The notes below the pieces were generated by a model. The model worked only from the letters and a program-made list of their open reading frames with translations. It was not told the origin of the DNA and made no database searches. Of a DNA stretch of 64,000 bases, positions 6,320-15,552 are shown piece after piece. Each line of letters begins with the position of its first letter. Position 1 is the stretch's first letter. Position numbers and translations under genes: made by a program. Source of the DNA: Nitrososphaerota archaeon (lineage in GTDB: Archaea; Thermoproteota; Nitrososphaeria; Nitrososphaerales; JACQRY01); NCBI GenBank assembly GCA_016184315.1, contig JACPCU010000007.1, positions 1 through 64,000 of the forward strand, given 5' to 3'.

Positions 6320-7315
6320 CTATACGAACTTATCAGCGTGATGGCAAGCCACAAAGTGGTCCTTTGCCAAAGCATCTATTAAAGGAGGTTCTTGCTTCTT
6401 GCATATCTCCGTGGCATATCTGCACCTAGGGTGGAAACGACAGCCGGAAGGTGGGTTTATGGGGCTGGGCACGTCGCCAGCTAGGATTATCCTCTCCCTC
6501 TTTGTCTTGGGATCAGGGATCGGCACAGCCGAAATGAGTGCTTGTGTGTATGGATTCAGAGGCTTGTCGAAGAGTTCCTCACTCTTAGCATATTCGAAGA
6601 TCTTCCCGAGGTACATCACCGCAACATGGTGGCTGACTTGTCTAACTGAACTCAAGTCATGCGATATGTAGAGATATGTCAACTCCTTTTCTTTCTGCAA
6701 ATCCATGATTAGATTCAATATTTGTGCTCTGATTGAAACGTCAAGGGATGAGACCGGTTCATCGGCGACTATGAGTTTTGGATCTGAAGCGAGTGCTCTA
6801 GCTATGCATATCCTCTGTCGCTGACCTCCGCTGAATTCATGAGGATATCTCTCCGCGTGGTACTCTTCAAGTCCTACCATCCTGAGTAGTTCATACACTT
6901 TTTCGTTCCATTCGCTTCTCGGGATATGCTGATGAATTACGCATGGTTCGCTGACTATGTCATAGACCGTCATCCTAGGGTCGAGCGAGCCATATGGGTT
7001 CTGAAAGATCATCTGCATACCCCTTCTGAACCTTCTGACTTTCTCGTCGTTAGTGTCATCCAGTGTTTCATGGACTTCCTTCTCGTCCACAAATGCGTGT
7101 CCAGCATCAGGTCTTTCAAGGCCTAAGAGTACCTTGGCGGTTGTAGATTTTCCGCAGCCGCTCTCACCCACCAAACCGAGGGTCTGTCCTTTAGCTATGG
7201 AGAAGCTAACGCCGTCAACAGCATGTACTGCGCCGGTCTGTTTCTTGAGGAGTATTCCGCGTTTATAGACTGGATAGTACTTGACCAGATCTTGGGCCTT
7301 GACAAATTCCTCCAC
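6320..7315 (-). CDS. oligopeptide/dipeptide ABC transporter ATP-binding protein (DppF/OppF-like)
   Basis: Walker A GESGCGKST, signature FSGGQRQRI, oligo_HPY C-term PSPINPPSGCRFHPRC. Confidence 0.92.
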   Translation of the reverse strand: MEEFVKAQDLVKYYPVYKRGILLKKQTGAVHAVDGVSFSIAKGQTLGLVGESGCGKSTTAKVLLGLERPDAGHAFVDEKEVHETLDDTNDEKVRRFRRGMQMIFQNPYGSLDPRMTVYDIVSEPCVIHQHIPRSEWNEKVYELLRMVGLEEYHAERYPHEFSGGQRQRICIARALASDPKLIVADEPVSSLDVSIRAQILNLIMDLQKEKELTYLYISHDLSSVRQVSHHVAVMYLGKIFEYAKSEELFDKPLNPYTQALISAVPIPDPKTKRERIILAGDVPSPINPPSGCRFHPRCRYATEICKKQEPPLIDALAKDHFVACHHADKFV

Positions 7316-7318
7316 GGG

Positions 7319-8308
7319 TTATGCTCCTCCAACGAGGGCAAGTTCCCGCCACCGATGACAAGCAACATAATGATTTCCATCAATCTTTTCCAGCTCGGGA
7401 ACCTTCTGACTGCATATCTCCTTAGCATAGGGACAGCGAGGATGAAACCTGCATCCAGAAGGTGGTTCGATGAGGTTCGGGATGTTGCCTTTGATTACGC
7501 CTAACTTCTTGTGTCTGTCAAGTCTAGGTACTGCTTCCAGCAGAGCTTCTGTGTATGGGTGCTTTGGCGAATAGAAGAGGTCATGGGTATTTGCGGCTTC
7601 GCAGACATTCCCCGCGTAGAGCACCACAATTCGCTGGGCCATATCGGCGACTATACCCATATCGTGGGTAATGATAACCATAGACATTCCGAGATTGTTG
7701 TGGAGGCCTCTCATCAGGTCCAAGACTTGTGCCTGAATTGTGACATCAAGGTTTGTCGTAGGCTCATCAGCAAAAAGAATCTTTGGGCTTAACGCCAATG
7801 CTCGAGCTATGCAGATTCTCTGCCTCATTCCTCCGCTGAATTCGTGAGGGTACATGTGAATTCTCTTTTCCGGTTCTGGTATGCCAACCCGTTGGAAGAG
7901 CTCAGTAGTCCTCTCTACTGCTTCTTTCTTGGGCATGCCTTCATGATACATTATGATTTCTTGCACTTGATCTCCTACGGTAAAAAGCGGGTCCAAAGAC
8001 GAGGATGGATCTTGGAAGACTATGGCAACCTTCCTACCTCTAACTCTCGCCATTTCCTTCTCGCTCTTGGCGAGTAGATCCTCCCCCTCAAGGTAGACCT
8101 TGCCAGATACGATTCTTCCAGGCCTTGGAACTAGCCTCAACACGGATAAAGCTGTAACCGTCTTCCCTGAGCCAGATTCTCCCACAAGCCCTACAATTTC
8201 GCGTTCCCCTAATTGAAAGGATATCCCGTCTACTGCCTTAACTATCCCGTTCTCAGTGTAGAAGTAAGTCTTCAATTCGTGAACATTGAGGATATGATGA
8301 TCTTCCAA
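7319..8308 (-). CDS. oligopeptide/dipeptide ABC transporter ATP-binding protein (DppD/OppD-like)
   Basis: Walker A GESGSGKT, signature FSGGMRQRI, IPNLIEPPSGCRFHPRC. Confidence 0.92.
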   Translation of the reverse strand: MEDHHILNVHELKTYFYTENGIVKAVDGISFQLGEREIVGLVGESGSGKTVTALSVLRLVPRPGRIVSGKVYLEGEDLLAKSEKEMARVRGRKVAIVFQDPSSSLDPLFTVGDQVQEIIMYHEGMPKKEAVERTTELFQRVGIPEPEKRIHMYPHEFSGGMRQRICIARALALSPKILFADEPTTNLDVTIQAQVLDLMRGLHNNLGMSMVIITHDMGIVADMAQRIVVLYAGNVCEAANTHDLFYSPKHPYTEALLEAVPRLDRHKKLGVIKGNIPNLIEPPSGCRFHPRCPYAKEICSQKVPELEKIDGNHYVACHRWRELALVGGA

Positions 8309-8386: not shown

Positions 8387-9298
8387 TTACAGAACGCCAA
8401 GCTCCTGAGCTAAGCCTTCCATCCCTGAGCTTCTGGACACCACCATGAAGTTGTCAAGGATCCTGTATGAAAACCAACTGGGATAAGCCCTTCTGACAGC
8501 TTCTGCTTGGGCGACCGCGACATCGGTACTAGGGAAAGAGAGCACCGCCTTAATCATCAGTTGGCCACCAACCAGATCTAGTGAACGTAGAGTAATCTTT
8601 GCTTCAGGTACCACACTCTGAAATAAGGTCATGGAGAAACCCATCCTTGCGTTGCCGGAAAGGTGGCGGGCATACCGTATGTCCCTGCCGTCAAACAATC
8701 TATCGCCGCGAGCATCATCCGTGTCTATTACAGTCTTCAACCAAGCAAGGGCATCGCTTCCTCCTATGGCGAAAATGGCGTGTTCCGAGATAAAGACCAT
8801 ATAACCTCCGATAAGCTGAGGAGTTCTGGCGTCGATCCTATTGATTACCTTATAGATGCTTACGCCGCTATACCTTTCTTGGGGAGTACTTGGACTCACG
8901 GCCGCTGAAAGGTCATCCATGGCTTGCGATAATGGCTTCATGAGTTGAATTATGGTGGAGTCTCTTCCTGCATTAGGAAGAGTCAGAGTAGAAATGTATT
9001 GCATCTCTCTGGGAAGAATAGACACATTCGCTCCAACAATGTTGATAAGAGGTTTACTTGGGAGTAGGTCCTCGGATTGCTCCAAAACTGCAGTGTAATT
9101 AAGGAAGATAAGATGCTCTGTCTTTGAAGGAACGAAATCCATCCATCTCTCTTGTTTGAAGTCGATTTTCTCTGGTAGATGCTCAATCTTCGGCTGCCCT
9201 GCTGACCATACCAAAGCGAGCAACATTACGACCAGTACGCCAAAGGTAATGCCGAAAGAGAAATAGAAAATCCTTCGGCTCGTTGAAGGTCGACCCAA
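8387..9298 (-). CDS. hypothetical protein with N-terminal membrane anchor
   Basis: 303-aa ORF, single N-terminal TM. Confidence 0.65.
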   Translation of the reverse strand: MGRPSTSRRIFYFSFGITFGVLVVMLLALVWSAGQPKIEHLPEKIDFKQERWMDFVPSKTEHLIFLNYTAVLEQSEDLLPSKPLINIVGANVSILPREMQYISTLTLPNAGRDSTIIQLMKPLSQAMDDLSAAVSPSTPQERYSGVSIYKVINRIDARTPQLIGGYMVFISEHAIFAIGGSDALAWLKTVIDTDDARGDRLFDGRDIRYARHLSGNARMGFSMTLFQSVVPEAKITLRSLDLVGGQLMIKAVLSFPSTDVAVAQAEAVRRAYPSWFSYRILDNFMVVSRSSGMEGLAQELGVL

Positions 9299-9729: not shown

Positions 9730-12546
9730 TTAAGCCCCTTTTGTCTTTCTCCCTGCTCGTATTCCCGAAACGATTCCTAATGCGCCCAGTATCACAGCAA
9801 TAGCTATTGCTATGTACAGCCCTGTTGTCAGTGTGGCTACCTGAGCTTGTAGATTGGCTATTTGTGATGACAGTTGTTGCTGGGTGTTCGCTAGGTCACT
9901 CTTTGTTGGCACAGAATCTTTCAGATTCTGGAGATTGGTGGTTGTTTCCTGTTTAAGCGTATTGAGGTTCTGGGTTGTGCTATCTCTAAGACTGTTGAAG
10001 TTTTGTGTTGAAGTAGCTGAAAGCGACTCTATGTTCCTTGTCATGGAGTCTCCTAGTGCCTTCTGGGAATCAGCCAATGTCTTCAGGTTCTTGGTAGTTA
10101 CTACCGCCAACTCGTTTATGGCTTCTGATGACGTCAGTATCTTAGCGAATTCAGCGAGAGTTACCGACTTCACCTCTGAGACTGGTGAGAATGATTGAGG
10201 CAACACCAAAGGCACTGAGCCGCTTTTCAACAGGTCTCTTAGTTCACTGGCGCTTGGGGGCGTTGGATAGTTTGCGGGTGGTACGGTGAATCCGGGGAAG
10301 AAGGCTCTGTAATACACCGCACCTGGTTTAGGTGGTGTTACTGTCACTGAATAGAGACCATTGCTGTCAGTTCTTGCTGTTGCAACGTCCTTCCAGTTGG
10401 CTTTCTCAGCCTCTGTCTTAGCAATTGAATCGGTGGATTCTTGGATGATTAGGGCGAAGTTTGGTCTGGGTTCTCTAGTAATCGGGTTGGTGAAGGAGCC
10501 GCCCACAGTGACTGATGATCCGAACAGATATTGTGCGTCTAAGGTGACTGGTTTGACTTGAATTCCAGTAATATTTGGCGACAGTTCTGGCTTGATTATG
10601 ACTGGCTCAGCTGGAGGTGGAGCGATGGTTATGGGTGAGAACTGTATGGGGTTGACTGTACCCGGTTGGACCCCGTAGCCAGCTGCTGCAAGCTCACGCT
10701 TAGCCGCCGCAGGGTCGTATGGGTCGGCCTTAAGGGATGTATCCCATCGTGCCCCTGCATAAGGTCCTACGAAGGTGACTCCAGGCGTACCCAATCCGTT
10801 GAGCAACCTATCTATGATCAGCTGCCTAGGTATCAGGTAGCTTATGGCTTTCCTAACGTGCCTCGCTGCCTCCGCCGCTTGACTTGGAGTAGCCCTGCCT
10901 AGGGGTGTACCAGTTCCCGTTCCCACTATGGGGTGTCTCATGTTGAAGCCGATCTCCTGCCATCCTAGATCATCATAGACAGCGACGCTCAACCCCAGTC
11001 CCTTCAACCTGTCCATGTCTTGTTGGAAGCTGTAGTTAGGATCGAGGACATTCACTTCTTTGTTCCGGTATGCTGCTATCGCAGATTCCTTTTCCACGAT
11101 GGTTGCAACTCTGTAAGTCTCCACTGAGAATTGTCCGATGGATTCTAATCCGGTCTTGTTCCAATAGTTGGGATTCTTTTTAAGGGTGGCCACTCTCGAT
11201 GTAAAGTCGTATCCTTGGAAGTTATATGGACCAGCTCCTACGGGACCGTTGGCCGTGTAGCTTCCACTACCGCCGTACTTTGCTGTGTCCCAAGTGTAGG
11301 TGTAGCTTCCCCTCATTGTTGAGAATGGATGGGAGTTGATCTGTCCGGGAGCTATCTGCTCGAGCAGGTGTTTTGGCCAAATTCCATTGGCGCCTCCCGT
11401 ATTGCCTACTATCAGGTCTTTTGCTGCGAAATAGACATCTCTGAGAGTGATTCTGTAGGTGTATTTGTCGACTGCCTCAACAGATCCTTGCGTAGGAGTT
11501 GCTCCTTTGGCTGTGTTGTCCAGTACTGTCGTTGTTCCATTAAGGAACTTGAAGGTAACTCTGCTTCCTATTTTGTCCACATCAATGCCAAAGTTCACCG
11601 AAGCTACTTCTGGATGCATCACTAGCCAATGGGTGTACACAGCGTCATCCGCAGTGACCTCAACGCCATCATGGAACTTCAGTCCTTGTCTTAGTTTGAC
11701 AGTCCACGTCTTGCCGTCCGCAGAACTGGTAATGCTCTCTGCCAGATCCAGCTTGAAACTGAAATCTCGTGCATCGATGAATTGTGGGTTGGCTCCTATT
11801 GCACCGTAGATGTAGAGAGCGTAGAAGGAATTAGACTCTGTGGTTTGTAGCGGGTTGATGTTGTCCACATCGCCTACCTCCGCGTAGTTGAGTTCCTTAA
11901 GACCGCCCCAGTGATGGAGATCGGGGAATGTTACTGCTCTGTAGAAGTCTTTCAGGCCCCAAGGTCTAAAGTTCGGATCCATGGCAGCTACTCCAGCAAA
12001 GTAGTAGACGGGGAGGTTTGGCATATCCCTGTAGAGGACTGCTTGAAGCTGCTTTAGTACCCTGACCTGGTCGTTGAATTCCAGTGCCTTTGCATAGTCT
12101 GCCGCGAGCTTGTTGACTTCTTGGTTTTCGTACAGATAATAATTGTTTCCTACGGGCGCAAGATCTCCTGGCTCAGATGTAAACTGTCCCTTGAATTCCA
12201 CTATTGGTGATGTTTGGCCCCAGCCTATGAATCCTATGCTGAAGCTGCCTTCTTCGAAGGGTTTGCCTAACGTCTTGTTATCGGCTGGCCAAAATCTGTC
12301 TATGAGAGCGGGGAAACTAAGGTATACTAGCCGTGCATCAATACCCACTTGCTGCATACTTTGCGTTATGATTGCCGCATATTGTCTTCGAACCGGATTA
12401 GAAGTAGGCGCTGCCAACGTCACAGAAAAGACGGTTTGTTGCTGCCCTTCAACAGGCGCTGCCAAGATGTTGAAGGAACTGAAGAGCAGGAGGAAAGCAA
12501 TGATTGCCAGACTTGAACCTCTTAACATGTCTCGTATTGCACTCAT
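9730..12546 (-). CDS. ABC transporter solute-binding protein (SBP_5/cluster C), apparently circularly permuted, with C-terminal Ig-like domain, coiled coil and TM anchor
   Basis: SBP_5 C-terminal-type segment (VTLAAPTSNPVRRQYAAIITQSMQQVGIDARLVYL) precedes N-terminal-type segment (LAESITSSADGKTWTVKLRQGLKFHDGVEVTADDAVYTH ... YLIPRQLIIDRLLNGLGTPG ... YDPAAAKRELAAAGYG); C-terminal TM GLYIAIAIAVILGALGIVSGI. Confidence 0.88.
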   Translation of the reverse strand: MSAIRDMLRGSSLAIIAFLLLFSSFNILAAPVEGQQQTVFSVTLAAPTSNPVRRQYAAIITQSMQQVGIDARLVYLSFPALIDRFWPADNKTLGKPFEEGSFSIGFIGWGQTSPIVEFKGQFTSEPGDLAPVGNNYYLYENQEVNKLAADYAKALEFNDQVRVLKQLQAVLYRDMPNLPVYYFAGVAAMDPNFRPWGLKDFYRAVTFPDLHHWGGLKELNYAEVGDVDNINPLQTTESNSFYALYIYGAIGANPQFIDARDFSFKLDLAESITSSADGKTWTVKLRQGLKFHDGVEVTADDAVYTHWLVMHPEVASVNFGIDVDKIGSRVTFKFLNGTTTVLDNTAKGATPTQGSVEAVDKYTYRITLRDVYFAAKDLIVGNTGGANGIWPKHLLEQIAPGQINSHPFSTMRGSYTYTWDTAKYGGSGSYTANGPVGAGPYNFQGYDFTSRVATLKKNPNYWNKTGLESIGQFSVETYRVATIVEKESAIAAYRNKEVNVLDPNYSFQQDMDRLKGLGLSVAVYDDLGWQEIGFNMRHPIVGTGTGTPLGRATPSQAAEAARHVRKAISYLIPRQLIIDRLLNGLGTPGVTFVGPYAGARWDTSLKADPYDPAAAKRELAAAGYGVQPGTVNPIQFSPITIAPPPAEPVIIKPELSPNITGIQVKPVTLDAQYLFGSSVTVGGSFTNPITREPRPNFALIIQESTDSIAKTEAEKANWKDVATARTDSNGLYSVTVTPPKPGAVYYRAFFPGFTVPPANYPTPPSASELRDLLKSGSVPLVLPQSFSPVSEVKSVTLAEFAKILTSSEAINELAVVTTKNLKTLADSQKALGDSMTRNIESLSATSTQNFNSLRDSTTQNLNTLKQETTTNLQNLKDSVPTKSDLANTQQQLSSQIANLQAQVATLTTGLYIAIAIAVILGALGIVSGIRAGRKTKGA

Positions 12547-12636: not shown

Positions 12637-13605
12637 TTGGGTGGAATGGCTAGGTATGTTCTAAGAAGATTAATCTTCATGATCCCTGTATTCCTAGCCG
12701 TATCGAGCATAACGTATCTCATAGGAAACGCCTCTGGTGACCCGATAGTCATCCTGAAGATTGGTAACCCTAGGGTAACACCTGAGACCTTGGAAGTCAT
12801 ACGTGCCTACTATGACCTTGATAAGCCAGTATATGTTCGCTATTTCCTGTGGCTGGGAAAATTCTTCCAAGGAGACTTGGGAAGATCCTTTGCAGGAGGG
12901 AGCGTGAACGAGGTGATTGGCGCTTGGACATGGACCACGCTTAAGCTCCAAGTGACTGCAATTGTTCTGTCGGTGTTGATTGGGATCCCTATTGGGGTAT
13001 TCTCAGCAAGACGGCAATACTCGAAGGCGGACATCGGGATAACTACAGCTGCGATCTTCGGGGTGTCTATGCCCACTTTCTGGTTCGGATTGGTTTTGAT
13101 CATAGTTTTCTCAAGCAATCTCCAGTGGCTTCCTTCCGCTGGAGCAAAGGGTCTCACATATTATTGGTGGGGAGATCCCTTCTTGGATGAAATCGCGCAT
13201 ATGATTCTCCCAACAATAGTCCTTACCTATGTGAGCTTGGCTCTGATAGTTAGACTTGTAAGGGCCAATATGCTTGAAGTGATAAGGCAGGATTTTGTGC
13301 TAGCAGCCAAAGCAAGTGGATTACCAGACAGGATAACCATATACAAACACGCATTGAAGAACGCGATTAGCCCTGTGATGACCTACATAGGTATCAGTTT
13401 TGGATTAGCGTTAGGGGGAGCTCCGCTGACTGAGACTGTATTCAGTTGGCCTGGCCTAGGCTTCAAATTCGTTGAAGCTGCCTTGGAGCTCAACTTACCA
13501 GTTGTTCAGGGCATAACTGTCATCATAGCAGTCATGGTAATGTTTGCCAATCTAATCACCGACCTTGCCTACGGAGTCCTTGATCCAAGAGTGAGGATTG
13601 AGTGA
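12637..13605 (+). CDS. dipeptide/oligopeptide ABC transporter permease (DppB-like)
   Basis: BPD_transp_1 pattern, MARYVLRRLIFMIPVFLAVSSITYL start, VRLVRANMLEVIRQDFVLAAKASGLP EAA-loop. Confidence 0.92.
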   Translation: MGGMARYVLRRLIFMIPVFLAVSSITYLIGNASGDPIVILKIGNPRVTPETLEVIRAYYDLDKPVYVRYFLWLGKFFQGDLGRSFAGGSVNEVIGAWTWTTLKLQVTAIVLSVLIGIPIGVFSARRQYSKADIGITTAAIFGVSMPTFWFGLVLIIVFSSNLQWLPSAGAKGLTYYWWGDPFLDEIAHMILPTIVLTYVSLALIVRLVRANMLEVIRQDFVLAAKASGLPDRITIYKHALKNAISPVMTYIGISFGLALGGAPLTETVFSWPGLGFKFVEAALELNLPVVQGITVIIAVMVMFANLITDLAYGVLDPRVRIE

Positions 13606-14509
13606 ATCGAAGAGCACCCAATTAACCGTAGCGAAGAAGAGGAGATCGGCCAGCCAGTGGGCTGTAGCTTTGCGAAGGCTTCGTAGAAACAAAGCCGGCA
13701 TAGTGGGCCTTGCAATAGTGCTCGCCTACCTGTTCTTAGCTATGTTTGGAGGGGTCTTTGCTGCGTATCCCCCAGGTAGCTTCCAGCCTCTCTATGACCT
13801 TGAGAATAATCTTCCTCCGTCATGGAAGCATCCCTTTGGCACTACGCTGGGTGGGCAAGATGTCTTCAGTGAGGCTCTGCACAGCACTAGAAACGATATG
13901 TACGTTGCCTCGGTGGCTACAGGGATCTCTGTTCTCATAGGAGTTTCTGTCGGCGCTCTTGCCGGCTACTTTGGAAAGGGAATAGATGCAGTATTACTCG
14001 GAGTCACACAAATATTCTATGTCTTTCCTATTCTGGTTCTGATACTGCTCTTTTCGAGAATCTTCGTATTGCTTGTAGTTGCAGGTTTCGGCTTAACCAT
14101 GATCGCCATAATCCTTGGTCTATTCGGCTGGCCCACTATTGCGTACATTGTGAGAGGTGAAGTATTGAAGATCAGGGAAATGGAGTTCATCACAGCATCT
14201 AGGTCATTGGGCGCATCCTCAAGAAGAATCTTATTCCGACACATAGTGCCAAACGTCCTTCCTCCCATAATAGTAATCTCGAGCTTGCTCATCGCGACAA
14301 ACATACTTCTCGAAGTCGCTGTCTCTTTCTTGGGATTCGGTGATCCTAACGCTTCGACTTGGGGCCAACTGCTAGAGTATGGAAGGCAGAACATACCTAC
14401 TTGGTGGGTGACAATATTCAGCGGACTTATGGTCGTCTTCATAGTCCTAGGGTTTAACCTACTAGGCGATGGAATCTCTGATGCGTTGAATCCGAGGTTA
14501 AGGGAATGA
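13598..14509 (+). CDS. dipeptide/oligopeptide ABC transporter permease (DppC-like)
   Basis: VRGEVLKIREMEFITASRSLGASSRRILFRHIVPNVLPPIIV EAA-loop; overlaps DppB stop. Confidence 0.9.
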   Translation: MSESKSTQLTVAKKRRSASQWAVALRRLRRNKAGIVGLAIVLAYLFLAMFGGVFAAYPPGSFQPLYDLENNLPPSWKHPFGTTLGGQDVFSEALHSTRNDMYVASVATGISVLIGVSVGALAGYFGKGIDAVLLGVTQIFYVFPILVLILLFSRIFVLLVVAGFGLTMIAIILGLFGWPTIAYIVRGEVLKIREMEFITASRSLGASSRRILFRHIVPNVLPPIIVISSLLIATNILLEVAVSFLGFGDPNASTWGQLLEYGRQNIPTWWVTIFSGLMVVFIVLGFNLLGDGISDALNPRLRE

Positions 14510-14655: not shown

Positions 14656-15552
14656 TTAGTTGATGGTCACGCAGCTGACTGAATGTATTCTAGGCAAGTT
14701 ATCTGCTATTTTCGTCCAAGAAATTCCTTCATCTATGCTTTGATACAACTGTCCTCCACTGGTTCCAATGTAGATTCCGCACGGGTCTTCTTGATCGAAG
14801 CTCATAGCTTCGCGCAACACGTTGAAGTAGGCTTTGCTCGGAAGCCCCTTTACGCTCTTGACCCATCGACCTCCGCCGTCTCGGCTTACCCACACTTGGA
14901 ACTTGCCTTTAGAGGGATACCTCGTCTCACCGTCTAGTGGGACGACATAGACTGTGTCAGCTTTGTGAGGATGTACGCCGATGGGGAATCCGAAGTCGCT
15001 GGGCAATCCTTTTCCAATGTCGCTCCACGTGTCTCCGAAGTTTTTGCTGGCGTAGATTCCGCCGTGGTTCTGCAGATACAGTGTGTCAGGCTTGGCAAGA
15101 TTATGGTCGATTTTGTGGACGCATTGACCGTACTCAGGATATTTTGTGGGGAGGAAGTCTGCTCGGATATTGTTATTCATGAAGCGCCATGTCTTGCCTG
15201 CGTCGTCGCTGCCCACTACGCCTACCGCGGAGATGGCCACTCGTATTCGACGCTTGTTTTTGGGGTGGATTACGATGGTGTGTAGGCATAAACCTCCGTT
15301 TCCCGGTTGCCATTTGCTTCGGGTTGGGTGAAAGTTTAGATCCTCGAAGCCTTTCCATGTATTGGAGTCGTCCTTGGATACAAATAGGGCAGCGGGCTCA
15401 ACACCGGCATAGAGGTTTCCTTCGCCATCAGGTTGAAGATTCCAGATGCGGCTTACGCTCAGCTTGTCCCGATTGTTCTTAGGGAAGCGGGGATGTGCCT
15501 TTGCTTTCGCCCATGTGTGACCTAGGTGGAATCCTTTAATATGTTGGTATGA
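14656..15552 (-). pseudogene. 5'-truncated BNR/WD40/sortilin-like beta-propeller protein
   Basis: Frame is open from 15552 without an obvious start and encodes GFHLGHTWAKAKAHPRFPKNN...GNLYAGVEPAALFVSKDD...W; several asp-box-like SxDxGxxW repeats; family N-terminus (about 90 aa) absent. Confidence 0.65.

Follow-up and report, generated by a model that had tools for sequence, protein, structure and literature searches.

Circularly permuted cluster C solute-binding proteins of Thermoproteota mostly carry membrane anchors at their new termini

Solute-binding proteins (SBPs) of ABC importers are read by their family profiles in a fixed order from N- to C-terminus. A gene on the reverse strand of a Nitrososphaerota archaeon contig (JACPCU010000007.1) raises the question of whether this order has been rearranged in an SBP_5 (cluster C) protein, and what the rearrangement achieves. 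We analysed a window of 64,000 nucleotides, positions 1 to 64,000 of the contig. An initial annotation had proposed that the last conserved block of the protein directly follows the signal peptide, that the N-terminal-type blocks come second and that the chain then runs into an Ig-like domain, a coiled coil and a transmembrane (TM) anchor. The frame is intact and singly open, starting with an ATG at 12546 and encoding 938 amino acids. Its parts follow the proposed layout: the signal peptide leads into the C-terminal third of the fold (39-213) and then its N-terminal two thirds (217-627), after which come a linker, the Ig-like domain, the coiled coil and the TM (Table 1). The Ig-like domain is conserved among homologues with the same arrangement, although a Pfam search gives it no family name; Pfam matches of the stalk to coiled-coil families were all spurious.

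Table 1. Features of the permuted SBP gene and its neighbours, in window coordinates (res, residues; m, position in the canonical SBP profile).
Feature	Positions	Strand	Basis or remark
OppF-type ATPase	6320..7315	-	ABC_tran + oligo_HPY
OppD-type ATPase	7319..8308	-	ABC_tran + oligo_HPY
Conserved partner with N-terminal TM and extracytoplasmic domain of about 270 aa	8387..9298	-	adjoins SBP in type-1 loci
C-terminal TM anchor, res 911-929	9760..9816	-	hydropathy 2.47
Coiled-coil stalk, about res 824-903	9838..10077	-	long helices, low-confidence full-length AF2 model
Ig-like beta domain, about res 675-752	10291..10524	-	AF2 strands, model 643-714, block pLDDT mostly 79-92
Flexible linker, res 635-674	10525..10644	-	AF2 pLDDT < 50
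SBP_5 N-terminal two thirds, res 217-627, last residues YDPAAAKRELAAAGYG	10666..11898	-	PF00496 3-286; m39-359
Displaced SBP_5 C-terminal third, res 39-213	11908..12432	-	AppA 359-500 at res 39-194; canonical profile m368-520 at res 37-209
Signal peptide, res 1 to ~30	12457..12546	-	hydrophobic helix res 7-25; sequence
OppB-type permease	12637..13605	+	BPD_transp_1
OppC-type permease	13598..14509	+	BPD_transp_1 + OppC_N

Several sequence comparisons recover the permuted order. Pfam SBP_bac_5 (PF00496) matches the protein with 193 bits against a curated cut-off of 32.4 (8e-57), profile positions 3-286 covering residues 265-632, and a second, weaker match is found further upstream without a change of frame, with profile positions 285-350 at window positions 12208-12432 (residues ~39-113). 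Alignment to Bacillus subtilis AppA (1xoc) places residues 262-310, 430-532 and 562-625 on AppA 63-111, 177-274 and 281-345, while residues 39-194 correspond to AppA 359-500, giving a permuted order within one chain. We also used a 530-position profile built from 43 canonical bacterial SBPs; against it, the unrotated sequence yields two matches, m39-359 (181 bits, residues 218-628) and m368-520 (54 bits, residues 37-209). When the core is rotated to begin near residue 209, they give way to a single match of 249 bits spanning m39-514. No rotation raised the score of eight canonical controls; nearly all homologues with the same arrangement respond like the window protein, the exceptions being mainly partial reads or divergent members. 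The conserved blocks m39-359 and m368-520 each occur once, and a profile search of these homologues for a second C-type block found none, as the initial annotation had noted for the window protein: each carries one C-block and one N-block. The colinear N to C order of SBP_bac_5 is thus broken by a C-block that precedes the N-block, and the window protein is almost certainly a circularly permuted cluster C protein.

Where the chain was cut bears on a further proposal, that permutation rewires the hinge. The new termini lie at m357/m368, about mature residues 342-346 of DppA, for which an aligned DppA fragment served as a ruler. We take DppA domain II to span residues 261-478, which places the cut in the C-lobe, after the 'AGY' helix and before the strand that follows it, and away from the hinge. 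For the window protein, hinge rewiring is therefore wrong.

Structure prediction points to a single fold. AF2 was run on residues 37-790 with a deep alignment of 102 rows, comprising 30 homologues with the same arrangement and canonical N- and C-fragments, which were trimmed because an earlier deep alignment had smeared the fragment ends. The model has a pLDDT of 87.7 and a pTM of 0.78, with both halves mostly above 90; a confident core covering both is followed by a disordered 40-residue linker and then the beta domain. With canonical N- and C-fragments in the alignment, the predicted packing of the halves relies on the 30 homologue rows. A full-length model from 5 sequences reached a pLDDT of 39 and was left out of the fold assessment. 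In a Foldseek search of the PDB, the best 50 matches to the AF2 model were all cluster C proteins, with AppA first (E 1.5e-14). Target TM-scores were near 0.5, as expected where only the colinear part is alignable, because Foldseek is order-dependent and cannot score non-sequential alignments. The model thus supports one intact cluster C fold as opposed to two independent partial SBP domains.

Two partial SBPs might still have been joined by assembly error, frameshift or recent tandem-gene fusion, since a permuted order could in principle result where the 3' part of one SBP gene is linked to the 5' part of its neighbour. A survey of archaeal homologues makes the likelihood of this negligible. 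The arrangement seen in the window protein, which we call type 1, recurs in four further genomes from the same taxonomic order (G034, G011, G036 and G051), in named contigs from Bathyarchaeota, Nitrososphaeria/Thaumarchaeota and Methanomethylicota, and in 23 of 300 sampled Thermoproteota genomes, counting that of the window. The junction and order of the window protein are shared by 30 non-identical type-1 proteins, which come from many genomes, have 33-46% identity to it and form one clade with support of 100/100. Such conservation rules out an assembly, frameshift or tandem-gene artefact, and the window gene is one open frame with a single C-block and a single N-block. Bacterial and Thermoplasmata proteins for which these scans found both blocks have them, without exception, in N-then-C order. 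Together, profile rotation, alignments to PDB sequences, the single-fold model and the recurrence of the order in dozens of archaeal loci bear out the permutation and C-terminal membrane tether that the initial annotation had suspected; neither two partial domains, nor a second C-type segment, nor a joining artefact was found. Type-1 proteins vary in their tethers. In the shortest (L148-L152, 622-632 aa), a signal peptide and permuted core ending ...AAAGYETGVAPPGGDFLQQYG lead straight from the AGY helix into the TM helix, without Ig domain or coiled coil; longer homologues have Ig and coiled-coil stalks inserted between core and TM.

The surroundings of the gene suggest its role. Two permeases and two oligo_HPY-tailed ATPases make up the set of an Opp/Dpp importer at the window locus, and homologous type-1 loci usually read OppB-C-D-F-SBP-partner. 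Of 25 type-1 loci examined, 18 (L006, L007, L009, L022-L033, L035, L038 and L039) have a homologue of the partner encoded at 8387-9298 beside the permuted SBP. The partner gave no match in an NCBIfam search and no significant match in a Pfam search; its family is possibly an accessory subunit. Because the OppBCDF locus is complete and conserved, together with the partner, we infer that the window protein is very probably the binding subunit of the adjacent importer. An SBP-derived receptor or sensor, for example one signalling through its coiled coil, would account for the coiled coil and TM stalk and for an adjoining membrane partner of an uncharacterised family. We consider it very unlikely: the full OppBCDF set is conserved across lineages, the TM is followed by only a few basic residues and no cytoplasmic domain, and the shortest homologues lack both coiled coil and Ig domain. 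A sialidase/BNR-repeat-like protein is also encoded nearby, at 14656-15240 (-).

The ligand residues of DppA are R383 and D436 in precursor numbering (PMC12136057). The Asp at the latter site (D408 in the mature protein) binds the amino group of the peptide. Among SBPs of canonical order, it is present in 19 of 30 from Thermoproteota and 25 of 43 from bacteria; it occurs in 0 of 30 type-1 proteins, which have Gly (22), Thr (5) or Ser (3). Judged by this site, type-1 proteins are unlikely to hold a peptide amino group as DppA does, and peptide binding by the window protein is no more than putative.

The second SBP_5 of the same genome is permuted at a different point. This 902-aa protein (P0002; C9:45489-48194, equivalent to L020:7490-10198) begins, after its signal peptide, with the segment that is normally C-terminal to NPxYW, so that the late part of the fold leads into the early part. 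Its residues 407-728 align with residues 22-337, and 122-313 with 400-602, of 7fi3, presumably the Thermococcus kodakarensis protein; in Pfam terms, PF00496 142-357 comes ahead of 27-139. Like the window protein, P0002 has a putative cluster C fold, a signal peptide, an Ig-like domain, a C-terminal TM and its own downstream OppB-C-D-F genes. It differs in having a Thr-rich stalk in place of the coiled coil and in its cut, which falls in the N-lobe just past NPxYW (profile position ~222 versus ~360). A sialidase/BNR-repeat-like protein with its own coiled coil and C-terminal TM is encoded beside this operon too (L020:4962-7463).

This second arrangement, type 2, is nearly universal in the class Nitrososphaeria, where 203 of 250 genomes contain it, and genomes with archaeal AmoA have it. 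In seven sampled ammonia-oxidizer genomes (G010, G024, G033, G050, G002, G008 and G040), which belong to families with archaeal AmoA in their sampled members (5 of 7 tested), the sole PF00496 match is at the start of a type-2 gene. Elsewhere in Thermoproteota, three loci (L195-L197) encode a signal peptide, type-2 core, Ig domain and C-terminal TM, and six more (L191-L194, L198 and L199) encode an N-terminal TM, a Pro/Thr linker and a type-2 core ending at NPYYWNATLW..YGFKP. One Bathyarchaeota contig (L022) bears both a type-1 and a type-2 gene. A third arrangement, found at one Thermoproteota locus (L190:2263-4302), starts with an N-terminal TM and a CARDB-like domain that scores below the Pfam cut-off, continues with m288-516 and then m33-254, and has a free C-terminus. 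A strand resembling the hinge strand follows m33-254, and the cut falls just before VRxAL; by sequence, then, this type-3 cut adjoins the hinge, unlike that of the window protein.

These arrangements do not trace to a single permuted ancestor, which the AU test rejects for types 1, 2 and 3 (p=3e-5). Monophyly of all type-2 proteins is marginally rejected (p 0.029), so that one or two type-2 origins are both possible, and types 1 and 2a are compatible with being sisters (p 0.40). Rows of types 2b and 3 lie among canonical Thermoproteota sequences in the tree, but type-2a branches are long. Canonical-order SBP_5 regions also occur in very long frames: two of ~1400 aa with ~800-aa C-terminal extensions in Thermoplasmata/DHVE2 (L050:5740-10005 and L054:5722-9915), and one of 2064 aa in a Thermoproteota genome (G324:C28:80180-81346).

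A shared feature of the permuted proteins is the position of their anchor. Nearly all those sampled have a TM anchor at the new termini, whichever end bears it (C-terminal in type 2a, N-terminal in types 2b and 3); departures from this are truncated frames and a few tails of weak hydrophobicity. Canonical cluster C proteins (AppA 1xoc, DppA 1dpp, OppA and 7fi3) belong to the same family by sequence and predicted fold and likewise occur with OppBCDF operons, but keep the native N to C order. Nearly all sampled canonical Thermoproteota SBPs have a TM anchor at the native N-terminus, whereas in the window protein it is at the new terminus. Tethering as such hence does not require permutation.

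We propose that permutation instead moves the point from which the tether leaves. The window chain starts at the C-lobe strand after the 'AGY' helix, reaches the old C-terminus, runs directly into the old N-terminus and stops at the AGY helix. The SBP would presumably close on its ligand as usual, while the stalk of Ig domain, coiled coil and TM would exit from the C-lobe and not from the native termini; in the shortest homologues, the TM helix alone would serve as tether. A membrane-anchored binding subunit of an OppBCDF importer, with a complete cluster C fold and a relocated tether exit, is thus our probable reading of the window protein. The permutation may have arisen by tandem duplication followed by trimming, with anchor position as what selection acted on. 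Alternatively, a chance duplication and trimming was fixed in an ancestor with no effect on anchoring or docking. Type 1, being a single clade, records one permutation event, and the termini of the fold probably tolerate joining; yet several distinct cuts (types 1, 2 and 3) within one phylum, rejection of a single permuted origin and the anchor at the new terminus in nearly all sampled proteins make neutrality rather unlikely. The last of these observations favours tether relocation over chance, and we give recurrent relocation about even odds of being the cause of the permutations.

Natural permutation of an ABC-importer binding protein has apparently been described once before, in TpMglB-2 (Tp0684) of Treponema pallidum, named 'Cluster Bc' by its authors, who propose anchoring as a cause (PMC4990184). 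TpMglB-2 resembles the window protein in being naturally permuted with a suggested adaptation to anchoring; it is bacterial and of an unrelated family with the cluster B (type I) sugar-binding fold. The window protein does not have that fold, its sequence and predicted structure being those of cluster C. In the openly licensed literature searched, we found no report of a circularly permuted SBP that is archaeal or of cluster C.

Among archaeal cluster C proteins, permutation recurs, is widespread and goes together with membrane anchoring, so the idea that anchoring drives permutation can be tested. On balance, we lean towards the view that Thermoproteota repeatedly permuted these proteins with at least three cuts (in the C-lobe, in the N-lobe and next to the hinge), that each cut brought the anchor to the new termini, that selection on anchor position drives the recurrence and that ammonia oxidizers, within this family, rely solely on such a protein. 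Family profiles match the sole SBP_5 of the sampled ammonia-oxidizing archaea over only part of its length, so this protein is easily mis-annotated.
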